Part shown: one piece after another, positions 7,055-55,578 of the stretch | Position numbering within the stretch: the stretch's first letter is position 1 | Layout: every line of letters begins with the position of its first letter | Assembly: GCA_016841325.1 (NCBI GenBank) | Contig: JAENZJ010000004.1 | Location: 62,001 to 126,000 of the forward strand | DNA length: 64,000 nt | From: Thermincola carboxydiphila | GTDB lineage: Bacteria; Bacillota; Thermincolia; Thermincolales; UBA2595 | Reading direction: 5' to 3' | The notes under the pieces: model-generated | The model's database searches: none | Told to the model about the DNA's origin: nothing | The model's input: only the letters and a program-made list of their open reading frames with translations | Position numbers and translations under genes: made by a program

Positions 7055-7237
7055 TTATCTTGACAGGACAACTACAGTCTTGTGGCTGTCCTGGCCCGCC
7101 AAAAACCTGGTAGATACAATTTCCCACCCTTTGGGGCAGAACTCGCTCAGGCTGGACTCGAAATCCTCAGGTTCATTTCCGTCGGCAGGCTGCCGGAGAT
7201 CAAGCTGGGTAACCTCCACTACCTTGTACTCGGCCAA
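7055..7237 (-). CDS. small DUF4177-like protein
   Basis: A 60-residue soluble protein starting at the TTG on 7237, preceded by the ribosome site GGGAGTGG. It begins AEYKVVEV and ends with a segment CPKGWEIVSTRF, the pattern of DUF4177-type small proteins (EYKVV near the start, GWELV near the end). Function is unknown for the family. A longer reading to 7303 has no ribosome site. It stands alone, convergent with nothing and divergent from the radical-SAM operon. Confidence 0.6.
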   Translation of the reverse strand: MAEYKVVEVTQLDLRQPADGNEPEDFESSLSEFCPKGWEIVSTRFLAGQDSHKTVVVLSR

Positions 7238-7364
7238 ATAAACCACTCCCTTTATTATTTTGTTTACTAAATATATTTGACAAAAAACTTGTAATCCCTG
7301 CAAAGAAACTACTAAAACTTATTCCAGACCGGCTTTTTTTATTTCTGCCAATAAAAACCAGGAC

Positions 7365-7393
7365 TTGACCAGCGAACCTATGTTCGGTATAAT
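7365..7393 (+). promoter_or_regulatory. promoter with LexA box in the spacer
   Basis: A -35 box TTGACC (7365-7370), a 17-bp spacer and a -10 box TATAAT (7388-7393). The spacer holds CGAACCTATGTTCG (7373-7386), a perfect inverted repeat of the Gram-positive LexA/DinR type (CGAAC-N4-GTTCG). LexA bound here would block RNA polymerase, so the two downstream DNA-repair genes are probably SOS-induced. Confidence 0.85.
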
Positions 7394-7427
7394 AGGTTAT
7401 GGAAATATTTTCAGGGGGGAATGGAAC

Positions 7428-8645
7428 TTGGACTTACTCCAAAAGCTCAGTTTACTTGGTGCAGCAGCAAAGTACGATGTCTGTGCAGCCTCAGGCTGCA
7501 GTTCAGGCGGACGTTCCGGCTTGCCTTCACCGGGAAGCGGGGTTTGTCACAGTTTTCTCCCTGACGGGAGGTGTATTTCCCTTTTTAAGGTTCTCCAGAC
7601 CAACTCCTGCCAGAAAGACTGTTTTTACTGCCCCAACCGTATCCAGCGCGATATACCCAGGGCAAGCTTCACCCCCGATGAACTGGCCGTGCTTTTCCTG
7701 GAATTTTACCACAGGAACTATGTCGAGGGGCTGTTTCTCAGTTCCGGCATCTGTAAAAGCCCCGGACATACCATGGAACAGATCATTAAGACTGCCGAAA
7801 TTCTGCGTTACAAATACAGGTTTAACGGTTATATCCACCTGAAAGTAGTACCGGGAGCCAAACCCGAATACATCGAACAGGCTGTCAGGCTTGCCAGCAG
7901 GGTATCTGTCAACATTGAAGCCCCTACAGCAGATTATTTGCAAAAACTGAGCCGGCTGAAAGACTTTGAGGATGGTATCATAAACCGGATGAAATGGATT
8001 AAACGGCTGCAGTCCGGCGGCCTGCTGCCTGCCGGACAGACAACACAGTTTATTGTGGGCGCGGCAGGTGAGAGTGATGCCTCCATCCTGAAGACTACTT
8101 CCGGCCTTTACCAGGGCATTGGCCTGAAACGTGTCTATTTCAGCGCCTTCCAGCCTGTGGCCGGGACACCCCTGGAAGGGATGCCCCCTGCTGCAGTCCT
8201 CAGGGAACACCGTTTATATCAGTGTGACTTCCTGTTCCGATTATATGGTTTTAAATTATCAGATATCAGTTTCAACAGTGAAGGCAACCTGCCTGAAGAC
8301 ATCGACCCCAAACTGAACTATGCCCTTAACAACTCTCACCTCTTCCCTCTTGAGGTAAACAGGGCATCCTACCGGGAACTCCTAAAGGTGCCTGGGATAG
8401 GCCCGGCTTCTGCACGCCGCATAGTAAACGCCAGGAAGAAGTTTAAATTTAATACCCTGGATGAATTGAAGAATACAGGTGTGGTTGTGAAAAGGGCTGC
8501 TCCCTTTGTTCAGGTTAACGGCAGGTACCGGGAATCATATAAACTTGTTCAGCAGCTTGAACTATGGAGGGATTCAGTTGATCATTCTGCACTCCGGCAG
8601 CCCAGGGTCATTTCTCAGGGCAGCCATGCTCTCTCGCTTGTATAA
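7428..8645 (+). CDS. radical SAM protein, putative DNA modification/repair (TIGR03916 type)
   Basis: About 405 residues starting at the TTG on 7428, which follows the ribosome site AGGGGGGA. The radical-SAM cluster motif is CQKDCFYC (C-x3-C-x2-C), with a further cysteine-rich stretch before it. The C-terminus has a helix-hairpin-helix segment (KVPGIGPASARRIV), a DNA-binding element. This matches the family annotated as putative DNA modification/repair radical SAM protein, which is nearly always next to a TIGR03915-type partner, as here (68-bp overlap). The chemistry is not known. The LexA box in the promoter supports a role in DNA damage. Confidence 0.88.
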   Translation: MDLLQKLSLLGAAAKYDVCAASGCSSGGRSGLPSPGSGVCHSFLPDGRCISLFKVLQTNSCQKDCFYCPNRIQRDIPRASFTPDELAVLFLEFYHRNYVEGLFLSSGICKSPGHTMEQIIKTAEILRYKYRFNGYIHLKVVPGAKPEYIEQAVRLASRVSVNIEAPTADYLQKLSRLKDFEDGIINRMKWIKRLQSGGLLPAGQTTQFIVGAAGESDASILKTTSGLYQGIGLKRVYFSAFQPVAGTPLEGMPPAAVLREHRLYQCDFLFRLYGFKLSDISFNSEGNLPEDIDPKLNYALNNSHLFPLEVNRASYRELLKVPGIGPASARRIVNARKKFKFNTLDELKNTGVVVKRAAPFVQVNGRYRESYKLVQQLELWRDSVDHSALRQPRVISQGSHALSLV

Positions 8646-9369
8646 AGGTCACTGTATGCACAAGAAGGAATATTCCTCATCCCTGTTCCGGGGACAGAAA
8701 GCTCTTGACTGTGACAGCATAAGTTCCGACGACGTCATCAACAGATATATACAGACCTACGGTCCCCTGGATTGGCTGAACAGTAAAAAAGCCGGCAGCC
8801 TGGCTGAAGCAGTCTTGTATGCTTCCCGCTACAATGCTCCCGACAGGTACCGGCTGATATCAAAAGTATTGCTCCAGGCCCTCGAATATGGCCCAGACTA
8901 CGTCCTGGGCAGGGTCTCAAAAGATGCCCGCAACATGTTTAACAGGTCTCGCAGGGTCTGTATGGAGGCCCACAGAGCTAATGGTTTTATCAGGCTGACT
9001 CCTGTGGAAAACCCAAAAGGCAGCTTTATGGTGGGCAAGGCCGAATTCCGGCATGACATCTGTGACCTGGTACTGCGCTACTTCAGCCGCCGCCACCAAG
9101 GGTGGAAAATTTACCTGATTTCAGGTAATACAAATACAGAACAGGCAGCATTAACCGGACAGACAGCGTGTTATCTCGAAAAAAATGTTGTTAAAACCGT
9201 CCCTGTATCAGACCTGCCATTTGAACTGCCTGGTGACGATTTTGAGAGGCTTTGGGAAACATACTATGAATCCCAGTATATTGAAGGCAGAAAAAACCTG
9301 GCCCTGGCCAGGAAACACCTGCCCCAAAAATACTGGTCATGGGTTCCGGAAGGAAACAAACTGAAGTGA
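8578..9369 (+). CDS. TIGR03915-type DNA metabolism protein, partner of the radical SAM protein
   Basis: About 263 residues from the TTG on 8578, chosen because GGAGGG lies 6 bases upstream and because the family starts with a short strand plus SGSPGSFL-like segment (usual form YDGSFEGFL). The C-terminal half contains the region RFTPVENPKG-like (here RLTPVENPKG) and FRHDICDLVLRYFSRR, then WEYYESQ-like WETYYESQYIEGRKN, typical of the family (DUF4130 region). It overlaps the radical-SAM gene by 68 bp, so the two are coupled. Function is unknown beyond this genetic pairing. Confidence 0.85.
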   Translation: MIILHSGSPGSFLRAAMLSRLYKGHCMHKKEYSSSLFRGQKALDCDSISSDDVINRYIQTYGPLDWLNSKKAGSLAEAVLYASRYNAPDRYRLISKVLLQALEYGPDYVLGRVSKDARNMFNRSRRVCMEAHRANGFIRLTPVENPKGSFMVGKAEFRHDICDLVLRYFSRRHQGWKIYLISGNTNTEQAALTGQTACYLEKNVVKTVPVSDLPFELPGDDFERLWETYYESQYIEGRKNLALARKHLPQKYWSWVPEGNKLK

Positions 9370-44191: not shown

Positions 44192-44243
44192 TTGACACAG
44201 GGCGGTCAGTTTTCATATAATTAATTTATCGAACACACGTTCG
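44192..44243 (+). promoter_or_regulatory. promoter with LexA box (ImuB-like gene)
   Basis: TTGACA (44192-44197), 18-bp spacer, TATAAT (44216-44221), then CGAACACACGTTCG (44230-44243), a perfect Gram-positive LexA inverted repeat placed over the start of transcription. Confidence 0.88.
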
Positions 44244-44282
44244 CAGATAGGCTAAACCTTTCTAATATGGAGGTTGGCGGAA

Positions 44283-45356
44283 ATGAGGATAATTGCACAC
44301 ATCTTCCTGCATGATTTCCGGGGCAGCGAATCTGAACTTGCCAGCAAATGCCTTAACCTGAGCCCAAGGGTGGAAACCCCCTGTGCTAATGAGGCCTTTA
44401 TTGACCTGGGCGGCAGAAAACCTCCCGGGGCAAGGCTAATCAGCGCTTTTGCCGGGACAGTCATCCCTTCCCTGGGGAGTTTTGCCACAGTCAGCCTGGC
44501 CCCCTGCCGCCTGCTGGCAAAGGCTTTGACAATGGCATATCTCTCTAACCCTCCAGGTCCGGGAAAATTGCCCGGAGGGACACTGACAAAGGCATATGAC
44601 AGATTCCGTCTCTGTGTCCTCAGACCGGAAAAAACCGGAGACTTTACCTCCGGGCTGCCGGTAGAATTTATGTGGCCATTGGAAGATAAGGTTATCCTGC
44701 GCCTGAAAACCCTGGGGCTGAAGACATTCGGCGATATCAGCGGGATTCCCCTGACAATGCTTTACAGCCCGTTTGGTTCCCTGGCCCCCCTGATTATGGA
44801 TTACAGCAGGGGTATTGATACCTCAAATGTGCCTTTTTTCAGCCCCCCCGACCGGATTACATATCACAGCCGCTGTGAGTGTACTGACATCACCGGGCTG
44901 GAAGAAACCATGAAACAGGCTGCAGTCCACCTCAGCCAAACCCTGCAGGAACGGGGAAAAAGCTACCGGGAACTGTCCCTGTCCATCTTCTCTGAAAATT
45001 TTTTCACCGAAAGCGTTACCTCTTCCTTTACCAGGGGGAAGTATGATATCCGTTCAGTATACCATGACTGTATGAATCTCCTGAAAAAACTGCAGATTGC
45101 AGGCCCGGTGACAGAGCTGTCCCTGGCAGCAGGACGGCTCACAAATTGTGTCCACAGCCAGATGTCTCTTTTTGAAGACCCCAAAACCCTTAACGGAAGG
45201 CATGCGGAACACCGCGAAAAAATAGCCAGGGTCTGTGAAAACCTGGCCTCCAGGTATTCACCCGGGATTGTCAGGATGGGCAGCGCCCTTCCGGTAAGCC
45301 GTAGGGAACAGATGCTGATGTTTGTTGACCCCCTGCGCAGTGGTGGCAAACCCTAA
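44283..45356 (+). CDS. ImuB-like Y-family DNA polymerase protein, probably inactive
   Basis: About 357 residues from ATG 44283 (GGAGG nine bases upstream). The middle and C-terminal parts are those of Y-family polymerases: a helix-hairpin-helix region (LKTLGLKTFGDISGIPLTML) and a little-finger domain (RCECTDITGLEETMKQ). The N-terminus is short: the first catalytic DMDAFFAS-type motif is replaced by IAHIFLHDF and only ANEAFIDLGG remains of the second. This is the ImuB pattern, a non-catalytic clamp adaptor for an error-prone DnaE. A clamp-binding motif QMSLF is present near residue 297. It is under a LexA promoter, and a DnaE with DUF6504 lies 7 kb downstream. Confidence 0.83.
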   Translation: MRIIAHIFLHDFRGSESELASKCLNLSPRVETPCANEAFIDLGGRKPPGARLISAFAGTVIPSLGSFATVSLAPCRLLAKALTMAYLSNPPGPGKLPGGTLTKAYDRFRLCVLRPEKTGDFTSGLPVEFMWPLEDKVILRLKTLGLKTFGDISGIPLTMLYSPFGSLAPLIMDYSRGIDTSNVPFFSPPDRITYHSRCECTDITGLEETMKQAAVHLSQTLQERGKSYRELSLSIFSENFFTESVTSSFTRGKYDIRSVYHDCMNLLKKLQIAGPVTELSLAAGRLTNCVHSQMSLFEDPKTLNGRHAEHREKIARVCENLASRYSPGIVRMGSALPVSRREQMLMFVDPLRSGGKP

Positions 45357-45395: not shown

Positions 45396-46757
45396 CTATA
45401 GGTTTTTCTTAAAAATATCACCATGACATTTCCGGCACAAATCATTACCCGCTCCCCTTAACATTTTATCATTCCCGCCCCGGCCATGGGGTTCATGGCA
45501 GTCAGCACAAGTAATTTTTTCCTGACGGATAGCTTCACCGTGAGATACATCCGGATTCATAAATTCCCCTGTATCATGACACAGGGTACATATTTGTTCC
45601 CTGGGGGCCGGCAGCAGTGATGTGTTGTCACTGTAATGTACGAGATGGCAGTTGAGACAGTCCCCGTCAGGCTTGTTGCCTCTTACTCTGCCGTGTTCAC
45701 TGCCTGCCATACTATCCACAACCTGGGCATGGCATTCGGCACAAACACTGTTCCCTTTTTGGTCCAACAGGTAAAGGTTCTCCGCACCGTGCCCCCGGTG
45801 GCATGATGTGCATGAAAAGCCGGATTCCCCTACCGGGTGATTGCTGGCTGCACTGTAAACAGGCCACATTTCAATATGGCATCCTGTACACCCATTAACC
45901 GGTAACAGGTATGGTAATACAGAACCATGGGGCTGGTGACATGACCGGCACATACCGGTTTTGGCAGGTTCATGAATAACAGGTTTCAGCATTTCTGCCT
46001 CAACTTCCGGATGGCATTGGAAACAGGCAAAGGGTACCGCTCTGTCCAACAGTGACTGGCCATTGGTGGCATGAGGGTCATGACACCGGGTACAGTTTCT
46101 TTCGGCAAATGGTCCGTGCTGATAAGGCATTGACATTTCAAGCACATGCTCTCTATGGCAGGTAGCACAAACCATAGCGGTATCCATCCGGGTCATCCCC
46201 TGATAATCAGAAGCATGGGGATCATGGCATGAGGTGCATTCACCCTGTTCAAAAGGCCGGTGCTGATTTGTCACCATACTCTTTTCGGACTGCAGTCTGT
46301 GACAGGAAGCACACAGGTCCTTTTTGCCAGCCCGTAGCAGTTTAGGTTCACTGCCGGCGTGGGGGTCGTGACAGTCTGTACAAAAGCCCTGCCGCCATGG
46401 TTCATGCTGTATGCCAGCCAGAGTTTCCTGTAAGCTGAGGTGACAGGTATTGCAGAGCTGCTGCCTGTCAGTTATCAATTCCATCTCAATATCAGGGTCC
46501 TGCAAATGCTGCTCATTAAAGAGGTGGCAGTCTGTACAGTACCAGTTTGCAAAAGGAAGGTGTACGGAACTTTGCTGGCCGGCGGCGGCAAACATATCAT
46601 TATGGCAGGTTTTGCACATCTCCTCTGTTTCTGCATTTTTCTTACTGTATTTTGAAAAAAGTTCATCCATATTCTGAGCAGGAATGCCCATTTTCAATGT
46701 CACTGCCATTGCCAGGGCAGCCAAAAGCATCATAAAAACCGCTGGTTTCCCGGTCAT
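45396..46757 (-). CDS. 17-heme c-type cytochrome
   Basis: A 453-residue protein with an N-terminal signal or anchor helix (about residues 7-24) and 17 CXXCH heme sites, beginning CKTCH and ending CRKCH. Many fall in doubled pairs (CTDCHDPHA, CTSCHDPHA, CTRCHDPHA), the doubled-CXXCH layout of NrfA/DmsE-like multiheme proteins. The repeating unit is about 45-50 residues. It overlaps the 38-heme gene by four bases (ATGA), so both are made from one message. The likely role is electron transport outside the membrane, possibly to extracellular acceptors. Confidence 0.9.
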   Translation of the reverse strand: MTGKPAVFMMLLAALAMAVTLKMGIPAQNMDELFSKYSKKNAETEEMCKTCHNDMFAAAGQQSSVHLPFANWYCTDCHLFNEQHLQDPDIEMELITDRQQLCNTCHLSLQETLAGIQHEPWRQGFCTDCHDPHAGSEPKLLRAGKKDLCASCHRLQSEKSMVTNQHRPFEQGECTSCHDPHASDYQGMTRMDTAMVCATCHREHVLEMSMPYQHGPFAERNCTRCHDPHATNGQSLLDRAVPFACFQCHPEVEAEMLKPVIHEPAKTGMCRSCHQPHGSVLPYLLPVNGCTGCHIEMWPVYSAASNHPVGESGFSCTSCHRGHGAENLYLLDQKGNSVCAECHAQVVDSMAGSEHGRVRGNKPDGDCLNCHLVHYSDNTSLLPAPREQICTLCHDTGEFMNPDVSHGEAIRQEKITCADCHEPHGRGGNDKMLRGAGNDLCRKCHGDIFKKNL

Positions 46758-49700
46758 AATGCCACCTCCTTCCCCTTATCCTGTTTCTGCCATGCCGGTT
46801 CCCGATGCACAGTATGGCATTCACGACACTGCACCTTTGTCAGGTCAAATTCCCAGTGTGCCTGGATGGCATTCCCGTGTTCAATATGACAGCTATTACA
46901 TTCGGTTCTCTTTTCCCTGATTACTGTTATTACAGTCCTGTTACTACTTTCATGACATGTGTTGCAGCCCCGGTCCTGCCTTTTATGTTCCTGGTCCAGA
47001 CTGACTTTGTGACATCCGGCACAGGCAAAGCCGGCATTACGGAACTCCGCTGTATGCTTGGGAGTTACGTCTCCGTGAATACTGTCATGGCAGGAAACAC
47101 ATGATGTATCATTATTTTTTACTGCCTTTCTGACATCATCCGGGGAATCGTCGTCATGGCAAGTTTTACAGGTCATCTCTTCCCCGTCACTGTTCACCCT
47201 GTCAACATGTTCGTCAGAAATGACGCGGCTGTGGCAGCCCGAGCAATTTACCGTCAGAATGTCAGGAAAAACGGATTCATGAACCTCAGTTATATCGTCA
47301 TGGACATTATGACAGGCATCACAGTACCGGTTTTGGGTATTTACGGCAAAATTGACTTTGGAAACATCTGTCTGGTGACAGATCCTGCACGAATAGCCGC
47401 GTTTCTGGTGTTCTCCATCAAGTTTTTTGGAATGACACCAACTGCAGTCAATTTCCTTGTTTTTTACAAAATCAGACTCATGACTGACATCCGGATGTAT
47501 TTGGTGACAGGCCGAGCATGCAGTATTGTTCGCTGCAACGGCATCAATGACGTCAGGTCTGCTGCTGTCGTGACAGGTTGCACAGTTTTCATTGTGATTT
47601 GCCGTCAATGAAGATGAATGGCACAGAGTACAGTTAGCTGACATATTCGTTACGTGGGCAGAGCTTACATCCTGGTGTACAGAGTGGCAGGAATCACATC
47701 CCGTGCTTCCGGCAGCCACAGACCGGGTTACCTGGTCTGTAGCCGAGCTATGGCAGAGGTTACAGTCACCCTTCCCCTGGTGTTCCGTGGTCAGTACCCC
47801 ACTGTGGCAGCCCGAACAGTCAAAGGTCTTGTTGTAGACAAAATCCGCTGTGGTATGAGCCGGTTCCACAGAAGACAGGGTATGAATACCGTGGCAGGCA
47901 TCACACTGCGTGTTACTGCTGTATATGGCTTCAGCCACGGTTGTGTTTGTACTGTCATGGCAGGCCGCACAATCCAGTCCCTGTGCCTGGTGTTCTATAT
48001 CAAGCATGTCATTGTGGCATCCGGAACAGTCCACTACCGGAGTGGTTACATAATTCGAAATATGGGCAGCAGCCACATCAGAGTGAATGTAGTGACACGA
48101 ATCACAGTCATTGCGACCGCCCAGTATAGAATCACTTATCTGCTGAACGGACGAAGCATGACAGAGGTTACAGTCTCCTGCAGGGCTATGTTCTGTTGTC
48201 AGAACATTGACATGACATCCCGAGCATTCAAAGGTCGGGGCATATACATAGTTCGCAGTAGTATGGGGCAATTCCACAGATTCAGGTGTATGTATACCAT
48301 GGCAGGCATCACAGTTGTTAATATTACCGGTTATCGCCCCATAAACTGTCTCATTGACAGTGTCATGGCAGGTGTTGCAGGTAAAGCCACGTCCTTCATG
48401 CTCTGTGTTTAAAACATCATCATGGCACTGGGCACAGTTTACCACAGGACTGATAACAAACCCGGAATCGTGAGCAGCCGTCACATCTGTGTGGAACTCA
48501 TGGCAGGCATTACAGTCGGTCTGTGATCCGCTGACAGCTGCCTTAACGTCAGCCCTGTTGCTGAGGTGGCAGGATACACAGTCAAGCGGTTGGCCGGTAA
48601 CAGACGAAATCCTTCCCCCGTGCTCTGTATCCAGCCTGTTTAAGTGGCACTGGCTGCAGTTAAAAAGTACCGGATCAGTATATATTGAGCTGTGAAGCAG
48701 GGCCATGTCGTGATAGTCTGCAGGATGGCACGCTGTACAGCCCGTATCTCCGGAATATACCGCATCCTGAACAACTGTATCCGTACTTCCGTGACAGACC
48801 TCACAGGTATAATTCCTGCCTGTGGCAGTCTTTGTCCTTATGTTTGCCGTATGTTCCTCATCAATATCAGGATTGTGACAGGTCCGGCAGTCATCCTCAA
48901 GTGCGGTGCCGTGAATAAGCCGGCTTGCCTCAAGTGTGTCGTGCGGGGTGTATGTATGGCAGGCACCGCAGGTTTTATCAGCCGCACTTATAGCGCCTCT
49001 GACACGTGCATCCGGGCTCAGGTGACAGGTGTTGCAGGAAACCTGGACCCGCTCACTGTCTGTCCTCCCAGGCCGTGCATGCTCTCTGGTAAGGGCCAGG
49101 GCATGGCAGGTATTGCAATTATTCCGGTCTGTCTTGTGAAGCTCAGGTATATCGTGATTATTTAGGGGCCTGGTGGGATTCACATATCCATTGTACCATC
49201 CTGTCAGCGGTGAACCGGGCTGGTGGCAGATGATGCAGTCCCATATTTCCCTGTTGGCAGTGACCCTGACAGGATATGTTGAACTATACCCCCGCAGCTG
49301 GTACGAAATCGACGGGCTGGACCCGTGGGGGGCCTCCGGCGTACCGTCCTCCAGACCATGGCACTGCACACAGTCAGCAGGATAGGTTATGTAGTTATGA
49401 CAGGCATCACAGTCGTTGGAGGAATGGGTGCCGTAGAAATTGATAGTATTATGCAGACTCTGGAATGGTATCCCGGAACCTTCGGCAATATCGTGACAGG
49501 CTGAACAGTTTACCATATTTGAGTCAGGCATTTCAGGATATGTACTGGTATTGAACATCCAGCTGATAGATGTGGTAAGCCCTCCCGGGTCGTAAGCACT
49601 CAGGCTCACCGTATGATAAGCTTCATCAGCCAGGGGTTCTGCCGGGACATGACTTACCAGTCCTGATGCAGAATCAAAACTGTGGGATACCTTCCGGCCG

Positions 49701-51826
49701 TTGACCTTCATTGTTATAGCATCCCGGTGAACGCCGTCATTATCAGTAACCTTTGCCGAAATAAGTGGAGTCAGGTCAGTAAGGTATGTTACCGGCTGCC
49801 ACCCGGATATTACCGGATAAGTCCTCCCTGTGAAGTTCCAGGCAGTCGTACCGGAATTGCCCAGAACGTCTTCACTCGTCAGAGAGAGGGTATGCGGGCC
49901 GTCCTTTATTGTTCCCTCATAAGTAACATATACTGTCTTCCTGCTGGTTATAATGTAACTGCCACAGCTGTCAGCCATCCCCTCATACCTGATTTGTGCC
50001 GGCAAAACCTGACCATCCAGTTTAAGGGTAACCTCCGGAGTAGAGCCTGTCCCTTTGATATCAGAGAAATCAGTCAGTTCTCCTCTAAATTTCAGCATAC
50101 CGTTGCTGATAATCATCCCGTCATAGAATTCACCTGTCAGTGCAGCCCCCGGCGGCCTGTTGTCTATAGAAAAAGTCCAGCTCGCGGTTCCGGTATTATA
50201 TACAGTATCAGCGGCAGAAACGTCTATAGTGTGGCTGCCATAGCCAAAATTGTGGTTGTATGTCACTGTTCCGGCAGCCGGGTCATAAATATGGGGTACC
50301 AGAGAACCATTATGATATACCACAATAGCTGCAGGGTCTATATTGTTATTGGCATCACTCACATTAACAGATGCAAATGCAGTGTCCCCAACCACAGAAT
50401 TGGGGGCAGGATTAAAGTTGGTGAACCCTGGCTTCGTCCCTACCGTAAAATTCCATGTCTCCTTCAGCATATTACCGACACTGTCGGCAATGGTGACTTC
50501 AGCAGTATGGACACCGTCATTCAGCCCGGATGTCCCAAAACTTACAGTACCTTCCTTATAGCTGTCAACTACATACCACGTCGCGCCGCAGGAGTCTGAT
50601 TCCCAGTGCCCCTTGTACTGAAAGGCTGCCGGCACTGGGGCCCCGTCTATTTTTGCCGTAACACTGTTTTTGTCAAGGTTGTTGGCACTATCCCTGACAT
50701 ACAGCGATACCGCAGGGCTGTTACCGTTCACCGTGCTGCCCTTATCCGGTTCCCAAACAACAGGAGCCGGTGGCAATGTATCTGTCTGGAAGCTCCACAT
50801 CCTGGCAGCGGTATTTCCGGCAGCATCACTGACCTTAAGGCTTACCTCATAGCTGCCGCTGGGGAAGCTTCCCTCATAGTACACTGTACCGGTGGGAGTA
50901 TAAACGGTATGTGCTACGGTGCTTCCATTAATTTGCAGGATTACGGAATCCCAGTCGATGGCATTGGTGTCGCTTACTGTTGCAGACACCCTGTCAATAA
51001 CCCCCAGGCTGCTGTTGTCTGCCGGGCTGAGACTGCTTATTTCAGGGGGAACCCCTACTGTAAATGACCAGGACTCTGTCATTAAGTTGCCCTTTACATC
51101 GGCAATACCTATTTCAACTGTATGAGTACCGTCTGCCAGCCCTGATGTCGCGAAACTGACAGTCCCTTCCCGGTAACTGTCCACCACCCAGACCGTTTCG
51201 GTCCAGCTGCTGCAGGAATCGCCATATGTAACGGTCTCCCAGTGGCCCTTAAACTTAAATTCAGGCGTTACCGGCTGACCATTCAGGACTGCACTTACTG
51301 AAGCCTCATCCAGGTTGTCAAACAGGTCTGTGACATAAAGAGAAACCGCAGGATTTGAAACAGTCACTGATGAATTCCTGCCCGGGCTCCAGCTTCCGGG
51401 GTTAGGTGCATTATCCACAGCGAAAGACCAGTTGGTGGATTGAAGACCCGCTGTATCATCATATACACTGGCCTGAACCGTATGTGATCCCTCTGAAAGG
51501 TCAGCTGGAGGTGTGTAACTGATATTGTAACTCCCCGGGGTGCTTCCCTCGGAAAGACCGGGGGTAACAGCTGCACCATCCAGTAACATACTGATATCCG
51601 TTTCACTGACTGTCCCTTCATATACTGAAATGCTCACACTTATATCAGGCCTTGTGTTTTCAATAATTTCACCATCTCCGGGCACCGGGGTGGTAAACAA
51701 TATACCGCTGGCGGCAGTTGCGGCAGCAACCCACCCTACAACTGCCAGGACAAATATTATAAGGCCCAGCATCAACCTTTTGGCTGGAGTAAGAGAGCTG
51801 TAGGCTTTTACAATTTTTTCGGTCAT
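46754..51826 (-). CDS. giant 38-heme c-type cytochrome with Ig-like modules
   Basis: About 1690 residues from the ATG at 51826 (ribosome site GAGGTGG). Residues 20-45 form one hydrophobic anchor. Residues about 50-770 are beta-rich Ig-like/cadherin-like modules, with one module type occurring twice (VSLYVTDLFDNLDEASV and VSLYVRDSANNLDKNSV, each followed by YKGHWE and SFATSGL/SFGTSGL). From about residue 775 to the end there are 38 CXXCH sites by my count, in a repeat that alternates CDACHGIHT-like and CSGCHxxVLTTEH-like units. The C-terminus is Lys-rich. The layout suggests an anchored stalk that carries a heme wire through the cell wall. Codon usage looks like the neighbours. Confidence 0.9.
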   Translation of the reverse strand: MTEKIVKAYSSLTPAKRLMLGLIIFVLAVVGWVAAATAASGILFTTPVPGDGEIIENTRPDISVSISVYEGTVSETDISMLLDGAAVTPGLSEGSTPGSYNISYTPPADLSEGSHTVQASVYDDTAGLQSTNWSFAVDNAPNPGSWSPGRNSSVTVSNPAVSLYVTDLFDNLDEASVSAVLNGQPVTPEFKFKGHWETVTYGDSCSSWTETVWVVDSYREGTVSFATSGLADGTHTVEIGIADVKGNLMTESWSFTVGVPPEISSLSPADNSSLGVIDRVSATVSDTNAIDWDSVILQINGSTVAHTVYTPTGTVYYEGSFPSGSYEVSLKVSDAAGNTAARMWSFQTDTLPPAPVVWEPDKGSTVNGNSPAVSLYVRDSANNLDKNSVTAKIDGAPVPAAFQYKGHWESDSCGATWYVVDSYKEGTVSFGTSGLNDGVHTAEVTIADSVGNMLKETWNFTVGTKPGFTNFNPAPNSVVGDTAFASVNVSDANNNIDPAAIVVYHNGSLVPHIYDPAAGTVTYNHNFGYGSHTIDVSAADTVYNTGTASWTFSIDNRPPGAALTGEFYDGMIISNGMLKFRGELTDFSDIKGTGSTPEVTLKLDGQVLPAQIRYEGMADSCGSYIITSRKTVYVTYEGTIKDGPHTLSLTSEDVLGNSGTTAWNFTGRTYPVISGWQPVTYLTDLTPLISAKVTDNDGVHRDAITMKVNGRKVSHSFDSASGLVSHVPAEPLADEAYHTVSLSAYDPGGLTTSISWMFNTSTYPEMPDSNMVNCSACHDIAEGSGIPFQSLHNTINFYGTHSSNDCDACHNYITYPADCVQCHGLEDGTPEAPHGSSPSISYQLRGYSSTYPVRVTANREIWDCIICHQPGSPLTGWYNGYVNPTRPLNNHDIPELHKTDRNNCNTCHALALTREHARPGRTDSERVQVSCNTCHLSPDARVRGAISAADKTCGACHTYTPHDTLEASRLIHGTALEDDCRTCHNPDIDEEHTANIRTKTATGRNYTCEVCHGSTDTVVQDAVYSGDTGCTACHPADYHDMALLHSSIYTDPVLFNCSQCHLNRLDTEHGGRISSVTGQPLDCVSCHLSNRADVKAAVSGSQTDCNACHEFHTDVTAAHDSGFVISPVVNCAQCHDDVLNTEHEGRGFTCNTCHDTVNETVYGAITGNINNCDACHGIHTPESVELPHTTANYVYAPTFECSGCHVNVLTTEHSPAGDCNLCHASSVQQISDSILGGRNDCDSCHYIHSDVAAAHISNYVTTPVVDCSGCHNDMLDIEHQAQGLDCAACHDSTNTTVAEAIYSSNTQCDACHGIHTLSSVEPAHTTADFVYNKTFDCSGCHSGVLTTEHQGKGDCNLCHSSATDQVTRSVAAGSTGCDSCHSVHQDVSSAHVTNMSANCTLCHSSSLTANHNENCATCHDSSRPDVIDAVAANNTACSACHQIHPDVSHESDFVKNKEIDCSWCHSKKLDGEHQKRGYSCRICHQTDVSKVNFAVNTQNRYCDACHNVHDDITEVHESVFPDILTVNCSGCHSRVISDEHVDRVNSDGEEMTCKTCHDDDSPDDVRKAVKNNDTSCVSCHDSIHGDVTPKHTAEFRNAGFACAGCHKVSLDQEHKRQDRGCNTCHESSNRTVITVIREKRTECNSCHIEHGNAIQAHWEFDLTKVQCRECHTVHREPAWQKQDKGKEVAL

Positions 51827-51892
51827 CTCTTCCACCTCTTTCTCCGGGCTGATTTGAGGAGCTTGTTTTAAATTGGTTGTTACTACTTTCTA

Positions 51893-52115: not shown

Positions 52116-52140
52116 TATAATTCTTACGAACATACGTTCG
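52116..52140 (+). promoter_or_regulatory. -10 box and LexA box (DUF6504-dnaE operon)
   Basis: TATAAT (52116-52121) is followed by CGAACATACGTTCG (52127-52140), a perfect LexA inverted repeat in the same place, relative to the -10 box, as at 44230. The -35 is weak (TTTCAT near 52093). Confidence 0.85.
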
Positions 52141-52185: not shown

Positions 52186-52434
52186 TTGGTAAAACTGATT
52201 AACAAAAATATTGAAATAAGATACAGCACTAATGACACCCCCCTGGCTTTCCGGTTTAACGGCAAGTGGCTTCCGGTAAGTCAGGTTCTTGAAATATGGA
52301 AGGATACCGGCACATGGTGGGATGGGGAAAGTGAAAAAACCTTCTACAGGGTGAACACTCATGAAGGAAGCCTTTTTGAACTTTACAGGGACAATAATAG
52401 CCTGGCCTGGTTCCTGTACCGGGTTTATGATTAG
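52186..52434 (+). CDS. DUF6504 family protein, mutasome-associated
   Basis: About 82 residues from the TTG at 52186, with AAAGGATGA upstream. The pattern PLAFRFNGKWLPVSQVLEIW, WWDGESEKTFYRV and LYRVYD is that of DUF6504 proteins, which are found with ImuB-like polymerases and error-prone DnaE. The biochemical role is unknown. It is 30 bases upstream of dnaE under the same LexA-controlled promoter. Confidence 0.82.
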   Translation: MVKLINKNIEIRYSTNDTPLAFRFNGKWLPVSQVLEIWKDTGTWWDGESEKTFYRVNTHEGSLFELYRDNNSLAWFLYRVYD

Positions 52435-52464: not shown

Positions 52465-55400
52465 ATGAGTTTTGTGCACCTTCATGTCCATTCCCCGTTT
52501 TCTTTTCTCGACGGGGCCGGCAGAATTGAAGAAATGGTCACCTCTGCAGTTACAGCAGGTATGCCGGCACTGGCTCTTACAGACCATAACAACCTCTGTG
52601 CCGCCGTTCTTTTCTCCGGCCTGGCCAAAAAGGCCGGGATCAAACCAATCACCGGTGTCGAAATAACACTGGGGGATGACAGCCACCTTACCCTCCTGGC
52701 CAAAAATCCCCATGGCTATACAAACCTGTGCCGTATCCTGAGCGCTGCCCACCTGGGGAATCCGCGCCAAACCCCGTGCACTTCTGTGGAAACCCTCAGG
52801 GCTTACAGCAGTGACCTGATAGCCCTGTCAGGATGCCGCCAGGGCAGGATTCCGCAGCTTATCCTGAAGGGGAATTACCGTCTGGCTGAGGAAGCAGCCA
52901 AAACATTTACTGATATTTTTGGCAGGGAAAACTTCTTTATCGAAATGCAGCATGATTTTCTTCCGGGAAGCCGGTTTCTCAACAACGCCCTGGATAACCT
53001 GGCCTCCCACCTGGGACTGAAGACAGCGGCCACCAACAATGTCCATTATGTTACCAAAGAACAATTTAAAATCCATGACCTGCTTACCTGTGTGCGGACC
53101 CTGACAAGGCTTGGGGAAATCCACCCCGAACGGCGCCTCAATGCGGAAAACTACCTGAAACCGCCTGCCGATATGGCCCGGATCTTTGGCGCCTATCCCC
53201 AGGCAGTGACAAATACCCTTGCCATTGCCGAAATGTGTATACCGGCCCTGGAAACAGGGAAGCGGCTGTTTCCCGCCTTTCCCGACATCCCCCCCGGGGA
53301 AACTGCTGCCGGTTACCTCAGGAAGCTTACTTACAAAGGTGCCGAGGAGCGCTATCGCTGCCTGCCCCGGCATGTGACCACACGCCTTGACCATGAACTC
53401 GACATCATCTGCCGCCTGGGGTTTGAGGATTATTTTCTTTTGGTCCGGGATGTCGCCAACTACGCCCGCAGGGAAAAAATCAGGTATGCCGGGCGGGGTT
53501 CAGCCGCAGATTCGGCTGTCGCATACTGCCTGTATATCACAGAGGTTGACTCCATAGCCCGGGGCCTCCTTTTTGAACGTTTCATGAGCCTGGAGCGCGC
53601 CCAGACACCTGATATTGACATAGATTTTGATTCCCGCCACCGGGACAGGGTAGCAGCATACCTCTATAAGAAATACGGCACTGACCGGGTGGCCACAGTC
53701 TGTACCTACAACACTTTCAGGGCTCGTTCCGCCTTCAGGGACCTGGCCAAAGCCATGGATTTCCCGGCCGCAGAGATTGACCGCCTGGCCAAAAAACTGC
53801 CATATATCCATGCCGACCAGATTGACCTGGCTGTAGATCGTTTTCCGGAACTCCGCGAAAGCGGAATTAATTCTCCCGGGTTCCGGGACCTCCTTGACTA
53901 CTGTGCGGCAGTCTCAGGATTTCCCCGGTTTATCGGCACCCACCTGGGGGGCATTGTTGTCAGCCGGCGCCCGTTATCTGAGGTAACACCCCTTCAGGAG
54001 GCTGCCAAGGGAATAGTTGTCACCCAGTATGACAAGGAATTTATAGAAGACCTGGGGCTGGTCAAGCTTGACCTGCTGTCCCTGAGGACCATGGCTGCAA
54101 TTGAAGACTCCACCCTGACTATCAGGGAAACAGACAGTAAATTTGACTACGAAAAAATTCCCCTGGAGGATAAGGCAACCTTTGATATGATTAACAGGGG
54201 GGAAACTGTCGGGGTCTTTCAGCTGGAGAGTCCAGCCCAGCGCGCCCTGCAAAGCCGGCTCGGGGCCTCAGAAATGGAGGACATTATTGCCAGTGTGGCC
54301 ATTATCAGGCCCGGACCCATCAAGGGCAATATGGTAGAACCCTTTATTGCCCGCCGCCAGGGAAAAGAACCGGTGACATACCTGCACCCTAAACTTGAAC
54401 CCATCCTGAAAAAAACCTATGGGGTTGTCCTGTTCCAGGAACAGGTCATTGAAATTGCCACAGCAATTGCCGGTTTTACCCCCGGGGAAGCCGACCGCCT
54501 GCGCCGCGTGATGACCCATGCCCGGTCCCACCGGGAAATGGCCGGCATCGGAGCGGAGTTTGTCAGAAAAGCCATTGCCAACGGGGTCAGCACAGAAGTC
54601 GCCGAAACCATCTTCTCATACATTACCGGATATGCCAGCTACGGTTTCTGTGAGGCCCATGCAGCGGCATTTGCCACCACTGCTTATAAAACAGCATATC
54701 TTATCAGGCATTATCCGGCCCATTTTTTTGCCTCAGTGCTCAGCCACCAGCCGATGGGATTTTATGACTCCAATACCCTGTGTGTGGAGGCACGCAGGAG
54801 AGGGGTGACCATCCTCCCCCCTGATATTAACCTCAGCCGGGAGTCTTTCACTGTTAATGCCGATACCATCCGCATTTCCCTGGGGCAGATAAAAGGGGTT
54901 AAGGAGAATTCCCTGAAAAAGATCCTGGCAGCCAGGGAAAAGGGCCCCTTCAGGTCCTTTGACGATTTTCTGAAACGTGTTTCCATAGGCCGGGATGTCC
55001 TGGAGAACCTAATCCGCTGTGGGGCATTTGACAGCCTGCATCATAACCGGAAGCAGCTGTTATGGGCCATTCCGGCGGCAGGCAGCAAAGGGAATACCAG
55101 TGCGCTGTCCTTCGGCGGGGAAGGTCCCCTTACCGGAGAATCTTCCCTCACAGATAATACGGTGACCCTTCCCCCTGTTCCGGACTTTACGCCACAGGAG
55201 AAATTCAACATGGAGTATGAGATACTCGGCATAGATGTAACCTGCCATTATATGAGTCATTGGCGCAGCAGGCTGGAACGCCGGGGATTTCTGAACAGCA
55301 TGAACCTTGCGGCAGCCGGTAACGGCAGCCAGGTCAGGGTCGCCGGCCTGCCTGTCCGCCCGCACCGCCCCCCTACCAGAACAGGCAAAATAGCCGCCTT

Positions 55401-55578
55401 TTTTTCACTGGAGGACGAATTCGGCCTGATTGACATAACTGTTTTCGAAAAAACCTACCAGGAGTTCGGGAACCTCCTTTTTACCAGGCCTGTCCCTCCG
55501 CTCCAGGTTTGGGGTACATTACAGCACAGGGGTAACGGTTTCTCCATAATCGCCCGTAAAATATTCCGCCTGCAGTAA
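52465..55578 (+). CDS. dnaE2: DNA polymerase III alpha subunit, DnaE2/ImuC type
   Basis: A 1037-residue C-family polymerase. Order: PHP domain (FVHLHVHSPFSFLDGAG, ALTDHNNL), palm with PDIDIDFDSRHR (catalytic aspartates near residue 384), fingers (AYKTAYLIRHYPAHFFASVL), tandem HhH and a C-terminal OB fold (VRVAGLPVRP, FFSLEDEFGLIDITVF). It is shorter than the replicative DnaE (about 1150) and matches the length of error-prone DnaE2/ImuC. The LexA box, the DUF6504 neighbour and the ImuB-like gene upstream make an SOS mutagenesis role likely. Ribosome site GGGAGG. Confidence 0.92.
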   Translation: MSFVHLHVHSPFSFLDGAGRIEEMVTSAVTAGMPALALTDHNNLCAAVLFSGLAKKAGIKPITGVEITLGDDSHLTLLAKNPHGYTNLCRILSAAHLGNPRQTPCTSVETLRAYSSDLIALSGCRQGRIPQLILKGNYRLAEEAAKTFTDIFGRENFFIEMQHDFLPGSRFLNNALDNLASHLGLKTAATNNVHYVTKEQFKIHDLLTCVRTLTRLGEIHPERRLNAENYLKPPADMARIFGAYPQAVTNTLAIAEMCIPALETGKRLFPAFPDIPPGETAAGYLRKLTYKGAEERYRCLPRHVTTRLDHELDIICRLGFEDYFLLVRDVANYARREKIRYAGRGSAADSAVAYCLYITEVDSIARGLLFERFMSLERAQTPDIDIDFDSRHRDRVAAYLYKKYGTDRVATVCTYNTFRARSAFRDLAKAMDFPAAEIDRLAKKLPYIHADQIDLAVDRFPELRESGINSPGFRDLLDYCAAVSGFPRFIGTHLGGIVVSRRPLSEVTPLQEAAKGIVVTQYDKEFIEDLGLVKLDLLSLRTMAAIEDSTLTIRETDSKFDYEKIPLEDKATFDMINRGETVGVFQLESPAQRALQSRLGASEMEDIIASVAIIRPGPIKGNMVEPFIARRQGKEPVTYLHPKLEPILKKTYGVVLFQEQVIEIATAIAGFTPGEADRLRRVMTHARSHREMAGIGAEFVRKAIANGVSTEVAETIFSYITGYASYGFCEAHAAAFATTAYKTAYLIRHYPAHFFASVLSHQPMGFYDSNTLCVEARRRGVTILPPDINLSRESFTVNADTIRISLGQIKGVKENSLKKILAAREKGPFRSFDDFLKRVSIGRDVLENLIRCGAFDSLHHNRKQLLWAIPAAGSKGNTSALSFGGEGPLTGESSLTDNTVTLPPVPDFTPQEKFNMEYEILGIDVTCHYMSHWRSRLERRGFLNSMNLAAAGNGSQVRVAGLPVRPHRPPTRTGKIAAFFSLEDEFGLIDITVFEKTYQEFGNLLFTRPVPPLQVWGTLQHRGNGFSIIARKIFRLQ

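Follow-up and report, generated by a model that had tools for sequence, protein, structure and literature searches.

The operon formed by a radical-SAM gene and a DUF4130 gene is widespread, and its annotation as a DNA modification or repair system derives solely from an association with a glycosylase. The copy found in the window (the whole 64-kb stretch of DNA analysed) carries a palindrome within its promoter, and raises the question whether the pair is controlled by LexA, and hence belongs to the SOS response. The sequence-only reading had placed a LexA box exactly in the interval between the -35 and -10 elements, and this arrangement is borne out. The promoter TTGACC-17-TATAAT (7365-7393) is the top match of the region in the promoter scan, with 11 of 12 promoter matches and a 17-bp spacer, and CGAACCTATGTTCG begins 2 bases past TTGACC and ends 1 base before TATAAT. 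The sequence at 7373-7386 shows 0 mismatches to CGAAC-N4-GTTCG, and, taking TTG 7428 as the start, the predicted operator lies 42-55 bases upstream of the radical-SAM gene. Palindrome, spacing and promoter overlap are all shared with Bacillus-type LexA operators (CGAAC-N4-GTTCG-like), from which no substantive difference is apparent. The features discussed are collected in Table 1.

Table 1. Coordinates of the promoter elements, predicted operators and genes discussed in the text (window numbering)
Feature	Position	Strand	Basis or remark
-35 element TTGACC	7365..7370	+	promoter scan; TTGAC invariant in the order's 5 gene-carrying genomes
Predicted LexA operator CGAACCTATGTTCG, palindromic, in the -35/-10 spacer	7373..7386	.	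pattern search, PWM 17.0-17.3, conserved in relatives
-10 element TATAAT	7388..7393	+	promoter scan; GTATAAT invariant in the order's 5 gene-carrying genomes
Probable ribosome-binding site GGGGGG	7414..7419	+	read from sequence
Radical-SAM + helix-hairpin-helix (HhH) protein, TIGR03916 (rSAM_link_UDG), 405 aa, TTG start	7428..8645	+	NCBIfam, Pfam, alignment
RBS GGAGGG of the DUF4130 gene	8566-8571		
DUF4130 protein (TIGR03915-like), 263 aa, TTG start	8578..9369	+	Pfam PF13566, NCBIfam
Second LexA box CGAACACACGTTCG	44230..44243	.	directly downstream of TATAAT, upstream of the Y-family polymerase-like (ImuB-like) gene
Y-family polymerase-like (ImuB-like) gene	44274-45356		IMS_C domain
Third LexA box CGAACATACGTTCG	52127..52140	.	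upstream of the DUF6504 and DnaE-type polymerase genes
DUF6504 gene	52189-52434		
DnaE-type polymerase gene	52465-55578		

The regulon of the genome was sampled by pattern search. The perfect form CGAAC-N4-GTTCG occurs 3 times in the window (7373, 44230, 52127) and 5 times in the 3.43-Mb genome, and three of the five precede DNA-damage-type genes in the 64-kb window. When one mismatch at most is accepted, 23 genome sites are found versus 56 for the reversed control pattern; when two are allowed, the window holds 13 sites versus 14 expected from shuffles. Since there is no excess in the window at two mismatches, the signal is carried by the perfect form and, above all, by its location. A matrix trained on the lexA promoters of other genomes singles out the three perfect boxes as the top three 14-mers of the window (19.7, 18.8, 17.0). 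The next-best 14-mer scores 12.7, and shuffles yield 0.1 site scoring 16 or more per window. With a score of 17.0-17.3, the box at 7373 exceeds all 1178 control windows used in the survey described below.

Within the order, the gene is carried by 5 genomes. Once their promoters are aligned, TTGAC, the arms of the box and GTATAAT turn out to be kept, apart from a single substitution at the end of an arm in G009 (CGAACGTTTGTTCT); flanks and box centre (CTAT, TTAT, TCCT, GTTT) vary. Because arms, -35 and -10 are maintained while flanks and centre differ, the footprint, as read from the alignment, is that of selection on promoter and operator, and not of recent common descent alone. The groups of the same family, order and class hold only about 10 genomes, and for this reason the phylum was used. 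Of the 299 Bacillota genomes searched for TIGR03916, 64 have a match over the cut-off, and 63 gene promoters were scored over the 200 bp upstream with a matrix trained solely on boxes from 30 lexA promoters, 1178 windows from the same loci serving as controls. This matrix was adopted because counting mismatches alone gave too few boxes in AT-rich genomes (41/62 within 150 bp). Forty-nine of the 63 orthologue promoters score above the 99th percentile of controls, where about 0.6 would be expected, and 46 above the 99.9th. Promoter counts are not fully independent, sequences being related, and hence families were also counted: at least one promoter above the 99th percentile is found in 30 of the 38 families represented. 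No box above threshold was detected in the orthologue promoters of G295, G078, G053, G205, G096 and G234, though LexA is present in these genomes.

A second set, made of 80 named loci (Heliobacterium chlorum, Clostridium aerotolerans and Enterococcus raffinosus are included), 59 of them from Bacillota, was scored within 150 bp. Boxes with two mismatches or fewer are found in 39 of the 59 Bacillota promoters versus 96 of 2342 control windows; with one mismatch or none, the figures are 17 Bacillota promoters and 0 control windows. Box position was scored in 42 promoters: 22 have the box within the spacer, and 14 have it overlapping the -35, and at both places a bound repressor should block the polymerase. 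The lack of LexA boxes upstream of orthologues in other Firmicutes had been named as the result that would speak against the sequence-only reading. The opposite came out, boxes being present and enriched both by the lexA-trained matrix and in the named set.

That the palindrome is a chance match within a good promoter, as the unremarkable number of two-mismatch sites in the window might suggest, is hardly credible, given the great rarity of the perfect form, the maintenance of the box in place in relatives despite diverged flanks, and an enrichment in orthologue promoters so far beyond chance as to have already refuted the idea. Nor is there much to be said for the box serving instead the small DUF4177-like gene (ORF 7055-7303, minus strand), which diverges from the radical-SAM gene and has the intergenic region in common with it: the box sits inside the plus-strand promoter, the sole minus-strand promoter-like site found there (7283-7254) is ~90 bp away, and it is the radical-SAM gene that the box accompanies in relatives.

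The regulator itself is encoded in the genome by a lone lexA match (G000:C7:34869-35471; 1e-20 or better), and directly upstream of it lies a cluster of three (34705, 34733 and 34792) of the 23 sites counted above at one mismatch or fewer. Among the 30 Bacillota loci, most lexA genes are preceded by the same type of box, which is degenerate in a few (f84 family, G042). In the f84 family (L063-L066) the orthologue promoter has a degenerate AGAATATATATTCG at the expected spot, and lexA is also devoid of a good canonical box; the LexA motif has possibly shifted in this family. Further S24-domain matches occur in some genomes, and phage repressors are able to share SOS-like operators, so that the box could be imagined to be used by a regulator other than LexA, such as a second S24-type or a phage-type repressor. 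We regard this as very improbable, because the promoter of the genome's single lexA match contains this motif as well, and the boxes of orthologues are recognised by a matrix built solely from lexA promoters. In addition, boxes are missing where the genome has no full-length LexA match: none of the four promoters concerned (G058, G178, G115, G239) exceeds the 99th percentile, against 49 of the remaining 59, a comparison which is supporting and not decisive because completeness reaches only about 80% in two of these four. Taken as a LexA site, the box at 7373-7386 is with high probability the operator of the radical-SAM/DUF4130 operon, which would be a member of the SOS regulon of the organism. 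LexA control of the pair is predicted with strong confidence, and induction of the two genes by DNA damage is very probable.

A regulon common to the pair and to the mutasome genes at 44230 and 52127 had also been claimed, and at the level of sites the claim holds. The mutasome is split into two parts, the ImuB-like gene on one side and an operon of DUF6504 and DnaE on the other. Both parts have a LexA box of their own directly downstream of the -10, and two multihaem-cytochrome-like ORFs (46754-51835, 45396-46757) lie between them. DUF6504 presumably corresponds to the domain described as ImuB-C. The ImuB-C domain has also been found alone alongside mutagenic polymerases (PMC3765255).

Two further sites of the genome lie beyond the window. 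One, a perfect LexA box (G000:C27:7088-7101), precedes a second SpoVG paralogue (7243-7491; loci L002, L234); it is located in the promoter spacer (TTGACT-CCGAACACCTGTTCGTGG-TATTAT) and is found at the same spot in 6 of the 6 family genomes checked, with centres ACCT, ATTT or AGGT. The remaining SpoVG copies examined (L240-L245) have no LexA box. The paralogue is a candidate for a SOS-controlled SpoVG in the family. A near-perfect box, AGAACATATGTTCG, is located at G000:C31:151577-151590 (L084), some 125 bp ahead of a sensor-kinase-like gene.

The radical-SAM protein scores 430.5 bits against TIGR03916 (cut-off 343.5, NCBIfam), and matches both Radical_SAM and HHH_3 of Pfam, the latter with 41.1 bits. 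It is of the short form (about 430 bits), as opposed to a long form scoring 600-680 bits. The ORF listing opens the frame at TTG 7365, within the promoter; TTG 7428, which follows the GGGGGG at 7414-7419, is the most likely true start, and is backed by alignment with relatives (MELLDKL, MDTLEKM). The cysteines of the CX3CX2C motif (C61, C65, C68) are invariant in 63/63 orthologues. N-terminal to the motif, three extra cysteines are conserved, C19 and C49 in 63/63 and C40 in 62/63 orthologues, and it is a reasonable guess that they hold a second (auxiliary) iron-sulfur cluster, the structural model being of low confidence at residues 20-36. In this model (pLDDT 84) the core is closest, among the matches listed, to HydE, lipoyl synthase and biotin synthase; the superposition on HydE covers 214 residues at 2.2 A, with a VIA Z of 18.6. 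The PDB matches listed do not include spore photoproduct lyase, though kinship with it is not thereby excluded.

As to the partner, the earlier label of radical-SAM/TIGR03915 pair stood only in part. The radical-SAM assignment is clear, and so is DUF4130 (85.2 bits against Pfam PF13566, gathering cut-off 27), but the curated cut-off of TIGR03915 (SAM_7_link_chp) is missed (87.2 vs 112.25 bits, NCBIfam), and we class the protein under DUF4130 and not among the TIGR03915 equivalogs. The first 68 bases of its gene lie within the end of the radical-SAM gene. The best 40 VIA matches of the model (pLDDT 90) are all DHH-type proteins, with Z values of 10.6 for PAP phosphatase (over 199 residues, 10% identity), 10.1 for RecJ and 9.9 for Cdc45, and Foldseek gives an E of 3e-4 for one entry. 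Sequence-profile comparison revealed no link to NrnA-type DHH proteins (hhalign probability 0.1-0.2). The metal-binding DHH motif (motif III), invariant in the NrnA-type comparison set, is absent from the partner encoded in the window, and the conserved columns likewise contain no DHH block. Because the profile comparison is empty and the metal-binding motif is absent, the DHH kinship suggested by the model is a fold lead, and not a family assignment. The motif YDGSFEGLLTA, located at the first strand in the long-type partner family, may be a relic of DHH motif I.

In some other phyla the partner is fused to a uracil-DNA glycosylase. The window partner is DUF4130 only, with no fused uracil-DNA glycosylase detected by Pfam in its 263 aa, and in other Bacillota complete adjacent partners are stand-alone proteins of about 240-320 aa. 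Partners of 464-507 aa occur in Henriciella, Erythrobacter and Neorhodopirellula, and fit, as expected, a glycosylase fusion.

Neither protein has matches in PADLOC or PHROGs, and a label of known defence system or common phage protein is thus unsupported. Phage and plasmid copies (10 phage records, 158 plasmid records) are merely distant, with best matches of 38-50% identity, and the locus has been rejected as a recent phage gene. A full-length TIGR03916-like gene, 42% identical, resides in Acinetobacter phage MD-2021a (CAKLQH020000003.1, 92356-93552; 240-kb record).

In the undamaged cell, a dimer of LexA sitting on the spacer of the promoter would, to judge from the position of the box, block sigma-A RNA polymerase. 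Self-cleavage stimulated by RecA is established for the LexA family, and after damage it would free the promoter of the pair. Both proteins would then be made together, and translation may be coupled, as suggested by the overlap of the reading frames. According to its domains, the radical-SAM protein would use SAM and a [4Fe-4S] cluster held by C61, C65 and C68 to form a 5'-deoxyadenosyl radical, while the HhH domain would hold the protein on DNA. Together with DUF4130 it could repair or process a DNA lesion with no need for uracil-DNA glycosylase.

SOS control assigns the pair to the damage response, but its chemistry cannot be read from that. DNA repair or lesion processing is the purpose that we favour, with some reserve. 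LexA control may be real and the pair still modify a non-DNA target (nucleotide, RNA or protein) within a wider stress programme, which we rate as rather unlikely. Non-repair genes are included in LexA regulons, as in the C. difficile survey (PMC4234289), and HydE, lipoyl synthase and biotin synthase, the nearest relatives of the core among the matches listed, act on small molecules or proteins. Three observations count against a target other than DNA: the HhH DNA-binding domain of the radical-SAM protein, the fusion of partner and glycosylase in other phyla (family definition; 464-507 aa partners), and the conservation of SOS control. For a role in DNA repair, a more specific and quite tentative proposal is that the conserved SOS unit is radical-SAM/HhH plus DUF4130, not the glycosylase: possibly an oxygen-sensitive lesion-processing enzyme with two iron-sulfur clusters (C61/C65/C68 and, perhaps, C19/C40/C49), assisted by a catalytically degenerate RecJ/Cdc45-like (DHH-fold) partner, and performing a DNA-repair chemistry not yet described.

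LexA control of the pair is not new in kind, since it has been predicted before in C. acetobutylicum and, for a related UDG-containing pair, COG1573-COG4277, in Bacteroidetes; COG4277 is, we assume, the TIGR03916 radical-SAM/HhH family. The prediction for CAC3343-CAC3344 of C. acetobutylicum, which its authors noted to be missing from RegPrecise, came from footprinting and expression (PMC3828012), and concerns one species, with no phylum-wide statistics and no binding test; a further point of difference is the short form of the radical-SAM protein at the window locus. SOS control of the COG1573-COG4277 operon was predicted in Bacteroidetes (PMC8565304), and the same paper cites the operon as being under SOS in Verrucomicrobia and Alphaproteobacteria. 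This too is a two-gene SOS-controlled DNA-repair operon, but it is described as a uracil-DNA glycosylase repair system, whereas in Bacillota no glycosylase is fused to the partner, and different phyla have different LexA motifs. SplB, the spore photoproduct lyase (COG1533; PMC3323433, PMC7739468), is likewise encoded by a radical-SAM DNA-repair gene in the LexA regulon, but belongs to a different COG, and the core of the window protein is nearest to HydE, LipA and BioB among the structure matches listed. The pair has been termed SplB-associated (PMC3765255), and a radical SAM protein, its family not specified, has been included in the Gram-positive core SOS regulon (PMC7739468). A table of the C. 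difficile LexA survey (PMC4234289) does not contain the pair.

What is new is the phylum-wide test, in its strength and breadth, and the observation that no fused uracil-DNA glycosylase accompanies the pair in Bacillota. Two structural leads provided by the models, namely a HydE/LipA-like core with 3 extra cysteines and a RecJ/Cdc45-like DHH fold, and the candidate SOS-boxed SpoVG paralogue are also new. SOS control in about 30 Bacillota families in which the fused glycosylase is absent represents independent evidence that the pair is a member of the damage response, and tells the conditions in which a phenotype is to be sought. Because SOS control is conserved where the fused glycosylase is absent, the data suggest that what has remained under LexA is the radical-SAM/DUF4130 core and not the glycosylase.
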